Shown one piece after another: positions 2-7,326 of a DNA stretch of 7,326 bases; positions within the stretch are counted from its first letter, which is position 1; each line of letters opens with the position of its first letter. This DNA is from Candidatus Eisenbacteria bacterium (GTDB lineage Bacteria > Eisenbacteria > RBG-16-71-46 > JAFGJU01), in assembly GCA_026388185.1 (NCBI GenBank), contig JAPLKG010000013.1, positions 1-7,326 of the forward strand. Direction: 5' to 3'. The position numbers and the translations under genes are program-made. Below the pieces are notes generated by a model. It did not search any database, had not been told where the DNA came from, and saw only the letters and a program-made list of their open reading frames with translations.

Positions 2-3000
2 AGTGTATCTCCGAGCATATGGGATTATCGGCTTCCGTACACGGGCAGGTACGTGTTGTATGTGAGTGATAATGGGGGAGACCATACTGGTAGTTATTGG
101 TTGAGTTTGCAGTGTCGGCAGGACGTGAAGGCTAAGGCTGAAAGGATAGTCGCGGCCGAGGGAACAATGTCTGGCTCTCTAGAGAAGTACGGCGCCATGA
201 AGGCATACGTGTTTCTTGTAGACGCAGAAGACACCACGACCGTAACGGTCGTAAGAAGTTCAGGTTTTGTGGAACCGTTGATGGAGCTATACGGACCCTC
301 GGACAGCCTGATCGTAAGCGTTGGTGGCTCATCGAGCTCACAAATTTCAGATTCGTATTTCAAACGATCCGGCATGTACACGTTGTACATCAGTGACTAC
401 GGAAGTGACGAGATCGGCTCATACGAGCTTAGGTGGAGCGGAGTTCTGGCTGGTGGGCTGATCAGAGTGGCCTCCATTATTGAACCCTCAGGAGTCGTTT
501 CCTTTAGCCCAAGCATAGTCCCGAAGGCACTACTAACGAACATCGGTTGGGAGGAGCAGACCTTCGCTGCCAAATTCACCATTTACAATGTCTATTCAGA
601 TAGCTTAGTCGATTTGAGCCTGTCACCGGGTGAGAGTGACACACTGAGCTTCACTCCGTGGACGCCGACCGAACCCGCCGCGTATTTTGCCACTTGTTCA
701 ACCCAGGCCGAGGGCGGTCTCGTACGCAGCGAGAACAGACAAGCTTTTTCTTTGACGAGCGGGGTAGGGCCAGAGATTTATAGTAGGACGCCTGGTGAGG
801 CTGCAAATCGTGGAATGGCCACTGTGACTATAACAGGCCGCGGCTTCGAACCGGGGACAACCGCGAGTCTCGAGAACACGGTGGGCGGGACAGTCTTTGC
901 TGATACGGCAGCCGTACAGTTTGTGAGCCCTCAGGAGATAAGAGCTACGTTTGATCTGACCGGTGCGGTTCCAGGTACCTGGAACCTTAGAGTCACAAAT
1001 CCCGATAATGACTCTTACATCTTCTACGAAGGTTTCACGATTTCGGGATTCCCGGGCCAGGAGATCGCATTCGGGAGCTGGGAAGAGTTTAGCGTGGGGC
1101 AGGCCAGACCAACCCAAATAGGTGTGAACGTTCCTGATGGCGTCGACAATCTCTATGTTCTCATGAAAAAGACCACCCACATCGGATATTCAGACACTTG
1201 GACAGGAAGCATGAAACTCTTCAAAGACGGAGTGCAGGTCGCACTTGCAAGTGGTAGTGGCGATTTTGATGTTCATTTGCAAACCCCGCAGTACGGCTGG
1301 TACACCCTCGAAGTATCCGCCACAGGTTCCGGTGAAGGACTGGTCAAGGTCTGCGCCGCCTTGGATAGCTTGCAACTGGGGCAATGGAAAATAGGCCAAG
1401 TCCTGAGACCCTATGGCTGTGACTGGGGGCAGGTGGATGTTCCTCCGAGTCAGGCATCCTTGTTCTTCGAGACAGAGGGTTTTGGGCTGTGGAGTACACT
1501 TGATGTTTATCAGGGGTATCTGGGCAACCGAAGCCAGCACTGGCAATTCTCCAACATGGGTGCAGGGTATCACATAGAGGGCGTGATACAGAACCCAGCG
1601 GCGGGTCGATATTACTTGAGGTACATGGATTCGGCGGTCATGGAGGGTGTTGGTGGCCAGGCGCGCGAATACATGATTATTGCTGACACAGTCTCGGTTC
1701 AGCCACCGCCAGCTTCTGCGCCCACAATCACGGACGTTTCCTCATACAAGGGCGGTACTTTCGGATTCGTGACATTGATTATTTCTGGAGCATCTCTCGC
1801 GCCTCGAGCAATAGTATCGCTTGTGCGGGACGGCTACAGCAGTGTGGCCGCGACTTACGTAAGCGGCGACTCAACTATGAGAGGTCTCACAGTGACATTC
1901 GACTTGTCCGCCACTCCGGCGGGAGAGTGGAGGCTTGAGGTTGCAAACCCTGATGGTGAAATGGTGGCAGCTCCTCAGCCTTTTGTTGTAGAAGCTGGCG
2001 GACAGCCGGACATGTGGGTAAAGATTGTGGGAAGGGAACAGTTGCGGGTCGGCAGATACCAGAGGTATGTCATAAAATATGGCAACACGGGCAACGTTGA
2101 CGCAATTGGGGTTCCACTCTGGATAGCGTTTCCCGCCAGTTTGATTTGGAAGTTTGATACTCCGATTGCACCGCCGACGCCGAGAGAGGGCGAAGAGCCC
2201 TTTGACTGGAGTCGAATACCGATTAGTATCGAGTATGATTCTGAAACTCGCATACCGCTTCTGCTTCCGTTGGTTCCACCCGGCTGCGACGGAACAATCG
2301 AGATTGAACTGATGGTACCCGGGGCCACTCTCGCTCAGGGTTTCGATCTTTCCGTTTGGTTAAATCGTCCTCTCTTCAATCCCTTGCCAATTATACTACT
2401 AGATCCCCGCCAAGCTGAGGGTTCTTCTCGGATTCCGCACGTCCCTGTACTCGGCGGCCCCTGGTGGTCGAGCGATTGGTATCAATGCATAGTTGACTTA
2501 GGCACCGCTCTCATAAAGTTTCCGCCTGGCTGGGATTGCCTTTATTCCTGGGGGAATATGTTCGTAATGTACGAGCTAGAGAGATATCGAGCCCGGATAG
2601 GTGCGCCGCAGGAGCCGCAGAGCCTGATACAGGCTTTCACTGACATGCTTGCCGAGTGCTGTGATGAGTTCTCGCCTGGAAACCCACGTTGCGCAAAGCT
2701 GGAACTCTACAATGACTTGAAAAATCTCGTGCTTGCCGTGAAACCAGGATCACCATGTGAAAAGACTTTCAGCAAGTGGTACAAAGCCCTTCTACATATC
2801 CTTTTTGCCAGTTCGGTGACCCCCGAGGACAAGTGTGGCCTTGCGGGTTACGATCCAGACGACACGCCCCCGGGACAGCTACGGCGGTTCGTCCCTACTA
2901 CCGACGCACTTACCTACCGCATTGACTTCTGGAACAAGGAAGACGCGACTGCCCCCGCGCAGGAAGTGTTCGTGCTCGACACACTGTCCACCGGTTTCGT

Positions 3001-3964
3001 CGATTCCACTTTTGCCTTCAACGAATTCGGCTTTCTGCGTTGGACTATCCCCTTGGAGGGCGGTCAGTACTTCAATATCAACGTTGACATGCGTCCGGAC
3101 AAGAATTCAATCGTAAGTGTGGAGGGCAGGTATAACCAAAGTGCAAGGGAAGTGAGTTGGACCTTCCGGTCTCTTGATCCAGCAACTGGCGAACCTCCCG
3201 AAGATCCAATGGAGGGATTCATGCCGCCCATGACAGACAGCGGTTATGAGATTGGTTGGGTCGATTTCACCGTAAAACCGCGGACAGATTTGCCCAGCGG
3301 AACGAGAATTGCAAATCAGGCCTTTGTGAATTTCGATGGTGTGGGTCCGTGGAATCCTGCACCGAAGGACGGCCCTTATATCAACACCGTGGACGTGCTC
3401 GCACCTACAAGCCACGCAAAAGCACTAGGCGCTACGCAGCCTCAGACTTCCTTCAATGTTTGCATCTCAGGCCAGGACGAGGAACACGGTTCTGGAATTG
3501 CCCGGTATTTGATATACGTCTCTGACAACGGAGCAGAGCCTGAGTTGTGGCTTGCTACACAGGATAGTACTGTTACTTACAGGGGTGAGAGCGGACACAC
3601 CTACAGATTTAAGAGCGTCGCCGAAGACAATGTCGGAAATAGAGAATTGCCCCATCTGGATTACGACGCCGTCACCACAGTCAATATAGTTCCCGTGATG
3701 GCAGTCTCGCCTAGCCCCTTTGTCCCGGCTCGTGGGCATACAAATATGACCTTCTTTGGAGAAAAAGTGCGTGGCTCGGAGATCAAGATATTCAACAAGG
3801 CCGGAGAACACATTAAGACACTTGAGGTGTCTGCAGGACAAGAAACGATAATCTGGGACGGTAAGAGTGAGGATGGAAAAGACGTTGCCAGCGGTGTCTA
3901 TGTGTGGGTGCTCCGGACTCCCTCGGGGGAGGAGCACAGAGGCAAGTTTGCAATTATCAGATAA
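2..3964 (+). CDS. Large multi-domain secreted surface protein with FlgD-like/T9SS-type C-terminal domain (5' end outside window)
   Basis: The reading frame is open to the left edge: codons from position 2 read SVSPSIWDYRLPYTGRY and run into the GTG at 53, which is inside a PPC-like domain and is not the start. Residues below are counted from that GTG. Visible domains: end of a PPC-like beta domain (1-20); a second PPC-like unit (about 28-128); a CARDB/Ig-like unit (135-233); IPT/TIG-like units (239-330 and 557-647); further beta-rich PPC-like sequence (335-548); a DUF11/CARDB-like unit (652-760); a cysteine-containing, partly helical insert (about 803-928); a domain with the YDPDD and TYRIDFWN motifs typical of large bacterial extracellular proteins (929-1115); an Ig-like unit with YLIYVSDNG and GHTYRFKSVA (1118-1210); and a FlgD-like terminal domain with SPSPFVP, WDGKSEDGKDVASGVY and a final KFAIIR (1213-1303). 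Such a terminal domain resembles type A T9SS sorting domains, so export and surface attachment are inferred. No catalytic domain is visible; an enzyme could lie upstream of the window. Confidence 0.85.
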   Translation, partial: SVSPSIWDYRLPYTGRYVLYVSDNGGDHTGSYWLSLQCRQDVKAKAERIVAAEGTMSGSLEKYGAMKAYVFLVDAEDTTTVTVVRSSGFVEPLMELYGPSDSLIVSVGGSSSSQISDSYFKRSGMYTLYISDYGSDEIGSYELRWSGVLAGGLIRVASIIEPSGVVSFSPSIVPKALLTNIGWEEQTFAAKFTIYNVYSDSLVDLSLSPGESDTLSFTPWTPTEPAAYFATCSTQAEGGLVRSENRQAFSLTSGVGPEIYSRTPGEAANRGMATVTITGRGFEPGTTASLENTVGGTVFADTAAVQFVSPQEIRATFDLTGAVPGTWNLRVTNPDNDSYIFYEGFTISGFPGQEIAFGSWEEFSVGQARPTQIGVNVPDGVDNLYVLMKKTTHIGYSDTWTGSMKLFKDGVQVALASGSGDFDVHLQTPQYGWYTLEVSATGSGEGLVKVCAALDSLQLGQWKIGQVLRPYGCDWGQVDVPPSQASLFFETEGFGLWSTLDVYQGYLGNRSQHWQFSNMGAGYHIEGVIQNPAAGRYYLRYMDSAVMEGVGGQAREYMIIADTVSVQPPPASAPTITDVSSYKGGTFGFVTLIISGASLAPRAIVSLVRDGYSSVAATYVSGDSTMRGLTVTFDLSATPAGEWRLEVANPDGEMVAAPQPFVVEAGGQPDMWVKIVGREQLRVGRYQRYVIKYGNTGNVDAIGVPLWIAFPASLIWKFDTPIAPPTPREGEEPFDWSRIPISIEYDSETRIPLLLPLVPPGCDGTIEIELMVPGATLAQGFDLSVWLNRPLFNPLPIILLDPRQAEGSSRIPHVPVLGGPWWSSDWYQCIVDLGTALIKFPPGWDCLYSWGNMFVMYELERYRARIGAPQEPQSLIQAFTDMLAECCDEFSPGNPRCAKLELYNDLKNLVLAVKPGSPCEKTFSKWYKALLHILFASSVTPEDKCGLAGYDPDDTPPGQLRRFVPTTDALTYRIDFWNKEDATAPAQEVFVLDTLSTGFVDSTFAFNEFGFLRWTIPLEGGQYFNINVDMRPDKNSIVSVEGRYNQSAREVSWTFRSLDPATGEPPEDPMEGFMPPMTDSGYEIGWVDFTVKPRTDLPSGTRIANQAFVNFDGVGPWNPAPKDGPYINTVDVLAPTSHAKALGATQPQTSFNVCISGQDEEHGSGIARYLIYVSDNGAEPELWLATQDSTVTYRGESGHTYRFKSVAEDNVGNRELPHLDYDAVTTVNIVPVMAVSPSPFVPARGHTNMTFFGEKVRGSEIKIFNKAGEHIKTLEVSAGQETIIWDGKSEDGKDVASGVYVWVLRTPSGEEHRGKFAIIR

Positions 3965-3988: not shown

Positions 3989-4870
3989 ATGAGCAAGGCG
4001 AGCGGAGCATGTTTGGTCTTGGCGTTCGTCCTAGGGGTCTCATTGTGGGGAAATGCCTATGCTATTGGTGAGGCGGGTGCGCAGTTTCTTAAGATGGGTG
4101 TGGGTGCAAGGGCATGCGCAATGGGGGAGGCATACGTCGCGATAGCAGATGATGCAACTGCCATTTACTGGAATACCGCTGGACTTGCAGAGATCCAGTC
4201 TCCGCAGATAACGGCTATGCAGAACTTCTGGCTAGCTGACATGAGCTATCAGTACCTTGGTTTGGTGTGTCCCTCACGTCTCGGCAGTCTCGGAATCTCT
4301 GCGGCCTACTCTTCCTCCGGCGAGATTCCCAAGTACGAGAACTTTCAACGTGAGGGAGAATATTCTGCGTATGATGCCGCTGGAACTATCGCATATGCCA
4401 GAAGACTAATGGGATCCGCTTCGTATGGAGTGAGTGTCAAATTCATCCAGGAGAAGATTGAAGAGGAAAGCGCCAGGGGCTTTGGGGTCGACGTCGGCCT
4501 TCTTTGCGCACCTGGTATCCTTCATGGCCTTAAGCTTGGGGTTGCTGTCAACAATATGGGACCTGGCATAAAGTTCATAGAGAAGGCAGACCCCTTGCCC
4601 TTGAGCGTAAGGGTTGGCGCAGCATACAAAACGGGGCCCTTGCTGCTGGCGGGCGATTTAGGCAAGCCAAGGGACAACGATGCTTACTTATGCGTGGGAG
4701 GGGAACTTGGAATTCGAGACATCCTGGCGTTAAGAGCGGGATATAATTCAGCTAATTCCTATTCAGCCGGCATCGGTTTGAAGTGGCGGAGAGTGTCAGT
4801 TGATTACGCCTACGTTCCGTACGAGTACCTCGGCGATACTCACCGATTCTCCGCCGGCGTGAGGTTCTAG
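3989..4870 (+). CDS. PorV/PorQ family outer-membrane beta-barrel protein
   Basis: This complete 293-residue protein starts at ATG 3989 with GGAGG at 3980-3984. Residues 1-25 form a signal peptide: a short basic start, a hydrophobic core LVLAFVLGVSLW, and a likely cleavage after AYA. The mature N-terminus carries the family hallmark: FLKMGVGARACAMGEAYVAI (33-52), then ADDATAIYWNTAGLA (53-67). The rest alternates short amphipathic strands and ends HRFSAGVRF with a terminal aromatic residue, as expected for an outer-membrane barrel. In characterised T9SS systems PorV is an outer-membrane shuttle that carries sorting-domain cargo to the attachment complex, and PorQ is a related barrel. The gene lies 24 nt after the large surface-protein gene with no terminator between them, so co-transcription is likely. 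The sequence does not decide between PorV, PorQ or another paralogue, so no symbol is given. Confidence 0.88.
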   Translation: MSKASGACLVLAFVLGVSLWGNAYAIGEAGAQFLKMGVGARACAMGEAYVAIADDATAIYWNTAGLAEIQSPQITAMQNFWLADMSYQYLGLVCPSRLGSLGISAAYSSSGEIPKYENFQREGEYSAYDAAGTIAYARRLMGSASYGVSVKFIQEKIEEESARGFGVDVGLLCAPGILHGLKLGVAVNNMGPGIKFIEKADPLPLSVRVGAAYKTGPLLLAGDLGKPRDNDAYLCVGGELGIRDILALRAGYNSANSYSAGIGLKWRRVSVDYAYVPYEYLGDTHRFSAGVRF

Positions 4871-5076
4871 GGGTTCCGTGGCAGTTGTCCGAATGCTATC
4901 TACGCGTATTCGTGCTGCACGCTACCCTTCCCATCGCCTCTTCACCACTTTCTGCCCTGCTTTCCCGCTGAAAGAATCTTCGGCTGACCTCACTAATTTA
5001 CTTGCCATCTCTTGCCTCAAGAGCGTTCATGGAGCTAGGCAGTCATTGTAACTGCTTGTTTGAAAAGCTATTAGAG
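4871..5076. other. Intergenic spacer without a recognised gene
   Basis: About 200 nt separate the PorV/PorQ-like gene from the lysine-rich gene. It contains a pyrimidine-rich stretch (about 4921-4966) and a weak inverted repeat GCTGAA/TTCGGC (4967-4972 with 4979-4984) that is not followed by a T-run. I see no convincing terminator, RNA gene or small ORF. The spacer marks a break between the surface-protein unit and the unrelated genes to its right. Confidence 0.4.
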
Positions 5077-5085
5077 AGGGGGTGA
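5077..5085 (+). promoter_or_regulatory. Ribosome binding site that fixes the start of the 181-aa gene
   Basis: AGGGGGTGA is a strong Shine-Dalgarno match 5 nt upstream of ATG 5091. An in-frame GTG at 5082 lies inside this element and so cannot be the start; ATG 5091 is chosen. Confidence 0.75.
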
Positions 5086-5090
5086 GAGAC

Positions 5091-5636
5091 ATGGCAAAGA
5101 AGGCGAAGAAAGGCAACGGCAAGGCCAAGGCGGCGGTGAAGCCTGAGCAGACTAAGCAGAACGCAGCGAAGGCTAAGGAGGCCCACAAGCCTCAAGCTCC
5201 CGACCTCGGCGCCCTGCGCAAGCCGGTGCTCGATGCCAACGCTGGCCTGACGAAGGCCGAAAGCGAGGCGAAGGTGCTTCTGGACAAGGCCGAAGCCCTC
5301 GTTGCGGCGGCTAGAGGCCAGTACCGCGAGGCGTTGGGGCTCTACCGCGAAGCCTGCCGGAAGGCAGGAGTGGACTGCGAGTTTGAAGGCGGGCGCTCTG
5401 AGAACGTGAGTCCGAAGGTAAGCTTCATCGTTGAGAAAGCTGACAAGGGCATCCGCGTGATGGTGAAGGGCAAGCCGGAGAGCGAGGAGATCATTCCGCT
5501 GGCAGCGCTCAAGGCATCGATTGGGAAGGCAGCCTATGCCTACACCGAGAAGCACGTGGGTCCGCGAGAGCGCGTTGGCAATAAGGGCGGAACGCTTGGG
5601 AATAAGCTGAGAGCTGTGATGGTGGGGAAGAAGTAG
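5091..5636 (+). CDS. Lysine/alanine-rich protein of unknown function (181 aa)
   Basis: I do not recognise this family. The protein starts at ATG 5091. Residues 1-35 are very rich in Lys and Ala (MAKKAKKGNGKAKAAVK...), like disordered, histone-H1-type nucleic-acid-binding tails. Residues about 40-92 are Ala/Leu/Glu/Lys-rich and probably helical or coiled-coil. Two cysteines, C89 and C96, lie close together. Residues 107-135 look like a beta strand region (VSFIVEKADKGIRVMVKGK). The C-terminal module (136-181) contains AAYAYTEKHVGPRERVGNKG, is strongly basic, and is duplicated at 6408-6548, where the protein sequence is kept at 43 of 46 residues. There is no signal peptide or membrane segment, so a cytoplasmic, possibly nucleic-acid-binding role is a guess from composition only. 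The gene is followed by its own hairpin and looks monocistronic. Confidence 0.75.
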   Translation: MAKKAKKGNGKAKAAVKPEQTKQNAAKAKEAHKPQAPDLGALRKPVLDANAGLTKAESEAKVLLDKAEALVAAARGQYREALGLYREACRKAGVDCEFEGGRSENVSPKVSFIVEKADKGIRVMVKGKPESEEIIPLAALKASIGKAAYAYTEKHVGPRERVGNKGGTLGNKLRAVMVGKK

Positions 5637-5678
5637 TGCGCTGAGTGAGGACCGTCTGTGATAGACGGCCTTGCTCTT
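5496..5678 (+). repeat. Duplicated segment, copy 1 (3' end of the 181-aa gene plus hairpin)
   Basis: This 183-nt segment aligns to 6408-6590 at a constant offset of 912 nt without gaps. The coding part (141 nt to the stop codon) has 21 differences by my count. The 4 nt after the stop differ completely, and the next 38 nt (5641-5678) are identical. Similarity ends abruptly at 5678, where copy 2 meets the intron. Confidence 0.9.
5643..5676 (+). terminator. Strong 3' hairpin, probable intrinsic terminator
   Basis: The arms GTGAGG-A-CCGTCT (5645-5657) and AGACGG-CCTTGC (5663-5674) pair around the loop GTGAT (5658-5662). Two more pairs extend the base (5643-5644 with 5675-5676), giving about 14 pairs with one bulged A at 5651 and two wobble pairs. 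The tail TTCTCATTTT (5677-5686) is T-rich but interrupted, so termination efficiency is uncertain. It starts 7 nt after the stop codon of the 181-aa gene and is repeated exactly at 6555-6588. Confidence 0.7.
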
Positions 5679-5701: not shown

Positions 5702-5730
5702 TTGACAGGCAGGCACCTCACAGGTAAGCT
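5702..5730 (+). promoter_or_regulatory. Candidate sigma70-type promoter for the methyltransferase gene
   Basis: A perfect TTGACA (-35) at 5702-5707 is followed after 17 nt by TAAGCT (5725-5730), a weak -10 with 3 of 6 matches. It lies after the hairpin and about 70 nt before ATG 5802, the right place to drive the next gene independently. Support is by pattern only, and the promoter consensus of this organism is unknown. Confidence 0.35.
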
Positions 5731-5801
5731 AGCGGTGGCTGATTAAGCAGAGCATGTTGGGCGGAAACGGCGTAAGACGTAGTTAAGCAACCGGAGAGCC
5801 G

Positions 5802-6368
5802 ATGATTCAACTCGTTCTATTAGTAGTGATCGTAGTTTTCCCCATCTCGGAGGTTGCGCTTGCTTTCGTGAAGCGCTCAAGCAGTCGTGCTGCGCAAAGC
5901 GAAGATCGTGGCTCAATGCGCCTGCTCTGGCTCAGTGTTGCTCTCGGCATCGCGTTGGCCAACGCCGCTCAGTGGATTCCCTCGGCTCGTTTCCAAGGAC
6001 CTAGGTATACGATCCATCTCATCGCGCTTGGTCTACTGGTGAGCGGCCTCGCCATACGCTGGGCGGCCATCCTCACGCTCGGCCGATTCTTCACGGTCGA
6101 CGTGGCCATCCATTCCAACCACGCGGTTGTTCAGACGGGACTTTACCGCTTCATCCGTCACCCGTCCTACACCGGCCTTCTCCTCGCCTTCATGGGTCTG
6201 GGTGTGTCCTCCGCCAACTTGCTGAGTATCCTGGGGCTTCTTATTCCCATCGCCCTCGCAGTGCTCAACCGCGTGGCGAAGGAAGAAAAGGCCTTGCTCT
6301 CTTCCCTGGGTTCTGAGTACGCAGCCTACTGTGCTCGTACCAAGCGGTTCATCCCTGGCCTGCTCTAA
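5802..6368 (+). CDS. Isoprenylcysteine carboxyl methyltransferase (ICMT)-like integral membrane methyltransferase
   Basis: This complete 188-residue protein starts at ATG 5802 with GGAGAG at 5793-5798. Hydrophobic segments lie at about 3-22, 41-59, 70-91 and 124-155. The family signature is clear: GLYRFIRHPSYTG at 113-125 (the RHPxYxG motif, part of the S-adenosylmethionine site in this fold) and RVAKEEKALLSSLGSEYAAY at 157-176 with the paired Glu 161-162, ending TKRFIPGL. In eukaryotes ICMT methylates prenylated cysteine at protein C-termini. Bacterial relatives are mostly uncharacterised and share the fold with phospholipid methyltransferases, so the substrate here, protein or lipid, is unknown. 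Length is typical for the short bacterial forms. The gene sits between two copies of the unknown gene's 3' end, has its own candidate promoter, and has no terminator except the hairpin of copy 2 at 6555-6588. Confidence 0.88.
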   Translation: MIQLVLLVVIVVFPISEVALAFVKRSSSRAAQSEDRGSMRLLWLSVALGIALANAAQWIPSARFQGPRYTIHLIALGLLVSGLAIRWAAILTLGRFFTVDVAIHSNHAVVQTGLYRFIRHPSYTGLLLAFMGLGVSSANLLSILGLLIPIALAVLNRVAKEEKALLSSLGSEYAAYCARTKRFIPGLL

Positions 6369-6407: not shown

Positions 6408-6548
6408 CCGCTTGCAGCGCTCAAGGCGTCGATTGGCAAAGCGGCCTATGCTTACACCGACAAGCACGTCGGGCCGCGAGAGCGCGTCGGCAACAAGGGT
6501 GGGACGTTGGGCAACAGGTTGAGAGCTGTGATGGCAGGGAAGAAGTAG
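6408..6548 (+). pseudogene. Truncated second copy of the 181-aa gene (C-terminal 46 codons only)
   Basis: The segment reads in frame to TAG 6546-6548 and encodes residues matching 136-181 of the protein at 5091-5636, with three substitutions (E153D, K172R, V178A). There is no start codon, and an in-frame TGA at 6399-6401 closes the frame just upstream. Compared codon by codon, 16 codons differ silently and 3 change the amino acid. This is the mark of two genes that diverged under protein-level selection before this one lost its 5' part. The sequence just upstream (6391-6407) would read KADEA in another frame and might be a frameshifted continuation, but the match to copy 1 is too weak to claim. 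The methyltransferase stop lies only 39 nt upstream of the homology. Confidence 0.85.
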
Positions 6549-6554
6549 CGATCT

Positions 6555-6588
6555 GAGTGAGGACCGTCTGTGATAGACGGCCTTGCTC
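6555..6588 (+). terminator. Second copy of the 3' hairpin, interrupted by an intron 2 nt after its base
   Basis: The sequence is identical to the hairpin at 5643-5676 (arms around the GTGAT loop at 6570-6574). Here the T-rich tail is replaced after TT by the intron. It may still end the methyltransferase transcript, or it may be weakened. It also fits the stem-loop target used by group IIC introns. Confidence 0.65.
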
Positions 6589-6976
6589 TTGTACGCCCAG
6601 CATGATGTTCACCTTGGAGGTGGAAGTCCTCCCGAAAGCTGGCCATAGCGATCGAAGCGAAGCGCAACTGCGGAAGGGTGACTGACCGTGGGAAGGAAGC
6701 GTGGAGCGAAGCCGCGGGCCGACGTACAGAAACCGGATTGGAGGCGACGCCGATCAGGGCGAGCGGGCAAGTGACCGCGAAGCTCTTATGGTCAAAGATC
6801 AGGCGGCGTAAATCCGGCGGTCGTGCGGTGAAGGGTGCATGTCTTATCTGGGGAGATCTTGCCTTACGTCTGAAAGGGCGACCCCGCTGAAAAGTGGGGG
6901 AGCAAGAAGTCAGCATAGGCCATAATATCTGCCTCAGGCAGAGAAGGGCCGAACAGAAAGGAGAGCAGAGGGAACG

Positions 6977-7078
6977 ATGGGTCTCAAAGGTACAGGGCCT
7001 CAGATGTCCGGGCAACTGGAGCTCCCGTTGGAGGGAGGGGTGAAGCCCCGAGCTACCGGCGGAGCGAGGAAGTACCGA
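6977..7078 (+). pseudogene. Stub of the intron-encoded reverse transcriptase/maturase N-terminus
   Basis: ATG 6977 is preceded by AAAGGAG (6957-6963) and lies where the intron-encoded protein normally starts, in domain IV. The first ~34 residues (MGLKGTGPQMSGQLELPLEG, then GVKPRATGGARKYR) recall the low-complexity leader often seen before the reverse transcriptase domain of such proteins. None of the reverse transcriptase blocks, the YADD motif, the maturase X domain or an HNH domain follows. The frame runs through domains V and VI to a stop at 7235-7237, outside the intron. I read this as an internal deletion of the ORF. The leader resemblance is from memory and is the weakest part of the intron call. 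Confidence 0.45.
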
Positions 7079-7119
7079 TGGCGGCACACGAGACCGGAAG
7101 CTCAAGATTCACTTCCTGA

Positions 7120-7151
7120 ACCGCCCGGTGCGGACCCGCATGCCGGGTGGT
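7120..7151 (+). ncRNA. Group II intron domain V
   Basis: A nine-pair lower stem (ACCGCCCGG 7120-7128 with CCGGGTGGT 7143-7151, one G-U pair) is followed by a two-nt 3' bulge TG (7141-7142) and a four-pair upper stem TGCG/CGCA with loop GACC. This is the domain V architecture. CGC at 7122-7124 can serve as the catalytic triad in the form used by IIC introns. The loop is not a GNRA tetraloop, which may reflect natural variation or decay. Confidence 0.8.
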
Positions 7152-7153
7152 GT

Positions 7154-7191
7154 GGCAGGGGATGTCGGGGCCTACCCGACACCCCTATGCC
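7154..7191 (+). ncRNA. Group II intron domain VI with branch-point A
   Basis: Three stacked stems pair: GGCA 7154-7157 with TGCC 7188-7191, GGGG 7158-7161 with CCCC 7182-7185, and GTCGGG 7164-7169 with CCCGAC 7175-7180, closed by the loop GCCTA. The unpaired TA at 7186-7187 lies on the 3' strand, and A7187 stands seven nt before CGAT's final T at 7194, the normal branch-point distance. Confidence 0.75.
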
Positions 7192-7194
7192 GAT

Positions 7195-7326
7195 TGCTGT
7201 ACGCATTTGTGAGCGCTCGCGGACCACCAGACGGTGAGAGCCCAGCTGTGTCTCGCGGTGGGATGTGGTCACAGAATCTCAAGATTTGCCGGAGGGCGGA
7301 GTCGAACTTGGGGCAAACGACTGGGG
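7195..7326 (+). other. 3' flank of the intron; no recognised gene
   Basis: The first bases carry TGTACGCATT (7198-7207), which matches 9 of 10 with TGTGCGCATT after the hairpin of copy 1 (5686-5695); this fits the start of the 3' exon. One frame (from 7197, with GTG 7209 and ATG 7263) stays open to the right edge, but the 40-odd residues match nothing I know. A tRNA-3'-end-like stretch occurs on the minus strand at 7287-7306. Confidence 0.4.

Follow-up and report, generated by a model that had tools for sequence, protein, structure and literature searches.

The window, by which we mean the whole stretch of DNA analysed here (7,326 nt), is contig C13 of a draft assembly of 2.62 Mb in 20 contigs that is 97.9% complete. 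It opens with a gene for a large, secreted protein whose C-terminal region is FlgD_ig/CHU_C-like (2-3964), next to one for a PorV/UPF0164-like outer-membrane protein (3989-4870), a predicted gene pair pointing to type IX-like secretion. The features that follow all lie on the + strand. An intact gene encoding 181 aa and belonging to no known family (5091-5636) stands at the head of an array, and its upstream region (4935-5090), common to contigs C1, C11 and C19, contains the 13-mer AGAGCGTTCATGG at 5020-5032. This head gene is followed by a terminator hairpin (5643-5676; 14 pairs, the core stem found by scan), a sigma-70-like promoter for the cassette gene, TTGACA-17-TAAGCT (5702-5730; 9 of 12 consensus bases), and the short form of an att-like site (5754-5788; core GTTAAGC at 5782-5788), which has a weak score (E 0.0025). 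A general promoter scan, requiring A as the second and T as the last base of the -10 hexamer and at least 4 of 6 matches per hexamer, did not list the promoter at 5702-5730. The cassette cargo is an ICMT-family methyltransferase-like membrane protein of 188 aa (5802-6368; PF04140, E 2.7e-18). Behind it come a head-gene tail of 46 codons plus stop (6408-6548), its terminator, and an ORF-less group II intron (6591-7193).

The head protein has no match above cut-off in Pfam and none in NCBIfam, and its predicted structure (mean pLDDT 58), a coiled coil with a small C-terminal part, was too uncertain for a fold search. Residues 140-180 are almost invariant across the copies. No relative turned up among plasmids and phages, in a set of 59 relatives or elsewhere in the phylum (47 genomes with the source), nor in GTDB and viral contigs, which were scanned with short back-translated patterns that distant relatives may escape.

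The end of the head gene with its stop and terminator (copy 1, 5496-5678) and the module behind the cargo gene (copy 2, 6408-6590, with its hairpin at 6555-6588) form a direct repeat with 87% identity across 183 nt. The initial annotation had described copy 2 as a truncated paralogue under a strong footprint of purifying selection, counting 16 silent and 3 conservative replacement differences. That count was essentially correct: the 46 aligned codons (6408-6545 against 5496-5633 in the intact neighbour) hold 21 nt differences and 3 amino-acid changes (E152D, K172R and V178A), and the Nei-Gojobori method gave S 17 and N 4, with dS 0.76, dN 0.040 and a ratio of 0.053 (codon-bootstrap 95%, 0.009-0.137), far from 1. 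The truncation and the footprint stand, as do the 46 codons of homology, but the end of that homology had been placed at the stop codon (6548), whereas it continues for a further 42 nt, to 6590, through the terminator hairpin.

Nor is copy 2 one of a pair. A DNA search of the genome with the 3' module found about 28 clear copies across C1, C10, C11, C13, C14, C18 and C19, and a search with the protein gave 22-24 matches. Intact relatives sought in the assembly amounted to three further full-length head genes (C1, C11 and C19, making four with C13) and a near full-length one on C10, starting from residue 51; the remaining copies retain 0 to 71 C-terminal codons. The 5' ends of the modules are thus scattered, with 0-181 codons retained, while the 3' end is fixed and the terminator is present in nearly all copies. 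The truncation runs the opposite way at C14:37541-37873 (-), where only the upstream region and the 5' end of a head gene, with the start codon ATT, are found.

The modules mark the seams in arrays whose genes are unrelated to one another, and the intact head genes lie upstream, at the array heads. On C1, C10, C11, C13, C18 and C19 these are single-orientation cassette arrays, each cassette having one gene and a recombination-site-like sequence, and the unit consists of an att core, a cargo gene, a head-gene 3' remnant, a terminator, a sigma-70 promoter and an att-like site. The usual order at a junction is terminator, promoter and an att-like site ending in GTTRGGC; C11:36814, C14:19991 and C11:28059 are exceptions without some of these parts. 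Other cargo includes SIR2-like, Abi_C/AbiJ-like and DUF4062 proteins (with and without TPR), a histidine phosphatase, a TPR protein, a CAAX-type protease and a nitroreductase; by their predicted products, some of the cargo genes are defence-like. The arrays are divided among several contigs of the draft assembly, and those of C10 and C1 are probably neighbours in the genome, because the final 141 bases of C10 (L012 19825-19965) are the first 141 bases of C1 (L009 1-141). A second conserved element, TATGAGGCCTCCCG..GTCAAGGG..CCCTTTGACCGG, lies 3' of cassette genes at C1:12123, C11:36035, C18:61586 (-), C14:18041 (-), C2:19016 and C2:32283.

Where did copy 2 accumulate its differences? Over the same codons, its dN to the four intact genes (0.046) does not exceed that among the intact genes (0.066), which supports the earlier proposal that selection acted during most of the divergence and that truncation came afterwards. 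Its dS is lower to fragments on other contigs (0.33 to C18:66331 and 0.37 to C19:2) than to the intact C1 gene (0.50) or the neighbour (0.76), so copy 2 did not arise by one recent duplication of 5091-5636. The pooled pairwise dN/dS was 0.05 for pairs of intact genes, 0.07 for pairs of an intact gene with a fragment and 0.10 for pairs of fragments; the small increase fits relaxed constraint after truncation. In a tree of the short alignment, whose support is weak, the fragments are dispersed among the intact genes. From the dS ranking and the pooled ratios we conclude that, as read from the codons, most of the divergence arose in functional head genes under protein-level selection and that the tails were cut late. 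The footprint in the tail would then be present because its codons come from head genes that were functional and had already diverged.

Continued expression of the C-terminal module, whether fused to another protein or from a different start, was not supported. We looked in the window for a fusion of the tail with the upstream cargo ORF and found none; the open frame of copy 2 begins only 2 codons ahead of the homology, and the earliest possible start is codon 33 of the 46. Some other tails in the genome contain a stop or a frameshift. Copy 2 is, with high confidence, an untranslated, repeated junction module.

What the seams do conserve lies 3' of the coding remnant. In 19 copies of the terminator hairpin 93.8% of the cells are paired, compared with 39-55% in slid versions, and covariation in these copies was not above shuffles; the hairpin of copy 2 has 14 bp. 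Since this pairing is kept and the copies share 88% identity in the terminator block, against 57% at fourfold-degenerate sites, the seams maintain the terminator, promoter and site, and not a peptide. A promoter of the type TTGACA - 17 or 18 nt - TATGCT, with at least 9 of 12 bases, occurs at 21 of 25 junctions, versus 4% of random stretches. Past the promoter there is usually a conserved stretch that ends in CTTATCTGGAAACGGCATAAGCCGTAGTTRGGC; beyond it the junctions are no longer similar, each leading into a different gene.

A sequence model of the att-like site found 32 places in the genome at E<=1, 27 of them at E<=0.001, and none at the latter threshold in 46 other genomes of the phylum. 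Its pattern was absent from viral contigs, the region had no Rfam match, and no consensus fold was conserved. Some sites stand alone, far from the arrays, and these carry no tail. The possibility that the site is an RNA leader was rejected: the copies at C2:18275 and C2:19175 lie upstream of an apparent promoter, which favours a DNA element over an mRNA leader. A weak att-like site was also seen immediately behind a tRNA gene (C8:217524).

The genome encodes seven tyrosine recombinases. Four are close Xer-like paralogues, three intact (286-288 aa, proteins 76-80% identical) and one without the N-terminus; two other Xer-like genes lie on C2. XerD and XerC are the best-scoring models for the four paralogues, at 193-204 bits, below the family cut-offs of 330-335. 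No recombinase in the assembly passed the cut-off of the integron integrase model TIGR02249 (265 bits), which the array-linked recombinases match with 85-93 bits in two pieces, skipping model positions ~183-236. As for an attI next to a divergent integrase gene, the arrangement looked for in an integron, two of the four have an adjoining att-like site, in one case divergent from the gene (C14:5628-5665, recombinase at C14:6044-6910) and in the other at the truncated copy (C14:32408-32444); no site is recognisable at the other two. The arrays are 6-12 kb away from the nearest paralogue.

The strongest sign of a link between recombinase and head gene is the 13-mer that their upstream regions share. 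There are exactly six copies of AGAGCGTTCATGG in the genome: two lie upstream of recombinase genes and four upstream of head genes, among them a broken one (C14:37641). Similar but inexact versions stand before the third recombinase and the C19 head gene. A scan of GTDB contigs for the recombinase, using N-terminal patterns, found none; matches in viral contigs were only 21-25% identical, and those in the phylum genomes only distant. Among the 47 phylum genomes, the head gene, the att-like site and close recombinase paralogues were found only in the source genome. Close to one array-linked recombinase, L009 2024-4071 (-) carries an IS91-type transposase (Y2_Tnp, Zn_Tnp_IS91) with a tyrosine recombinase of its own. 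Also, a block of several kb holding a recombinase paralogue and a DNA methyltransferase-like gene is repeated with 74-85% identity (C14:5789-12647, C14:32533-37500, C10:126508-131164 with C1:1-1673, and C11:14187-18649) and is perhaps a separate mobile element.

At copy 2 the expected promoter and att-like site are replaced by the group II intron, whose conserved D1-D4 structure scores above the Rfam gathering level (RF02001, 117 bits against 32; RF01998, 46.8 against 35) and whose boundaries were set by alignment with a second copy on C4. It starts at 6591, 2 nt past the end of the terminator stem at 6588. Class C introns typically insert just downstream of a terminator stem-loop (PMC7923331), and the position matches this class, which is judged here from the insertion place, the 603 nt encoding no reverse transcriptase. 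The 3' flank (7194-7295) matches C14:14607-14707 (94%), which is intron-free and directly follows a different terminator. The flanks thus come from different contexts, as recombination between two intron copies would produce according to the published model of cassette formation (PMC7923331). They may instead reflect a join made in assembly, for the contig stops 133 nt beyond the intron. Its last stretch, GCCGGAGG..CGAACTTGGGGCAAACGA at 7290-7326, is a further dispersed repeat that recurs at C14:25167, 26598 and 39915 (-).

Judged from sequence, copy 2 is best read as the tail of the methyltransferase cassette, a scar at the cassette's 3' end. We consider it reasonably likely that this scar belongs to an integron-like cassette system of unusual make-up, and it was probably site-specific recombination, acting at the att-like site, that assembled the arrays. 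In the mechanism we propose, a Xer-like tyrosine recombinase, one of the four genome paralogues, would join DNA at these sites, and a cassette would be born when an imprecise deletion fuses the gene downstream of one site to a point inside the head gene of a later module. Only fusions retaining terminator, promoter and site would stay useful, and for this reason the 3' end would be fixed while the 5' ends scatter. That the Xer-like paralogues themselves carry out the array-building recombination is a tentative assignment. A still more speculative extension is IntI-independent gene-cassette capture. Here the recombinase, Xer-like and present in several copies, would use att-like sites of its own and share its regulation with the previously undescribed head protein. 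The arrays that it builds would consist of transcription units complete in themselves, promoter and terminator included, and the head-gene tails would record cassette births. Recombinase action on the sites, the mobility of the cassettes and the deletion route are deduced from sequence, whereas the copy number, the fixed 3' and variable 5' ends and the conservation of terminator, promoter and site were observed directly, together with the missing expression signals of the tail, its non-neighbour origin and the presence of AGAGCGTTCATGG upstream of recombinase and head gene.

Could the arrays simply be a true sedentary integron, or integrase-free attC clusters (CALIN), with unusually long attC sites and an IntI that was lost or lies in an assembly gap? 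We regard this as unlikely, though it accounts for the GTTRRRY-like site cores and for the one-orientation, single-gene cassettes with their typical cargo. Most cassette boundaries read GTT(A/G/C)GGC or similar, several deviating from the GTTRRRY core, and the predicted RYYYAAC box in the cassette tail fits the beginning of its own cassette more closely than permuted ones (P 0.001-0.006; 18 cassettes, with three choices of window). Pairing beyond this first box, as attC would show between R''/L'' and L'/R' on its folded bottom strand, is weak, however; the near-complete assembly yielded no integron integrase, the array-linked recombinases fit the integron model only piecemeal and XerD/XerC best, and nearly every cassette has both a promoter and a terminator.

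Growth of the family by ordinary tandem segmental duplication, leaving truncated paralogues between genes, would explain homologous copies in one orientation. We find it very improbable: the DNA between the copies is unrelated, the cargo genes tested are not paralogous, fragments do not cluster with their neighbours, and the shared part ends at an att-like site that is also found alone elsewhere. More improbable still is that the C-terminal module serves as a mini-gene or peptide kept by selection and translated within the cassettes. The low dN/dS and the near invariance of residues 140-180 might suggest this, but copy 2 and several other copies have no usable start codon, some tails are interrupted, and at some junctions no codon is retained. 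Finally, 5'-truncated retro-insertion by a LINE-like process, reminiscent in its fixed 3' and variable 5' ends and in a genome with group II introns, is hardly credible when all truncated copies lie in arrays in cassette orientation and isolated sites are tail-free.

On the preferred reading, with copy 2 as a cassette scar, the seams bear on the origin of cassettes, an old open question in integrons. What can be read there is a scar: the tail of a homologous gene, cut at a different point in each cassette, with terminator, promoter and site retained. Provided that the recombinase does act on the sites, the arrays would represent a cassette system that lies outside the IntI family and bears on the evolution of IntI, which still retains ancestral double-strand recombinase activity (PMC4792948), from double-strand recombinases. 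The tail also carries a warning: when a gene fragment shows a low dN/dS, the value may reflect the history of its parent genes rather than current use.

Among known systems, the published group IIC-attC model of cassette formation (Leon and Roy, as summarised in PMC7923331) involves recombination between intron copies, and resembles the copy 2 junction in that the intron directly follows the cassette terminator and its flanks derive from different loci; here, unlike in that model, the intron is at one junction near a contig end and the other ~27 junctions are intron-free. XerC and XerD resemble the array-linked recombinases in model scores and in length, but the latter fall below the cut-offs and form four diverged paralogues tied to the arrays by a common upstream motif. 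Sedentary chromosomal integrons and CALINs share with our arrays the one-orientation single-gene cassettes split by a common recombination-site-like sequence ending in GTTRRRY, the varied accessory cargo and the isolated single sites elsewhere in the genome. They differ in the recombinase, Xer-like paralogues taking the place of IntI, whose hallmark is an additional specific domain (PMC9668308), and in the cassette end, which here nearly always consists of head-gene tail, terminator and promoter, whereas integron cassettes generally have no promoter (PMC8946536), with exceptions (PMC11014356). We do not claim membership among the integrons, because no IntI was found and attC-type pairing is weak past the first box; as a functional analogy, the closest description is that the system may work like an integron array.
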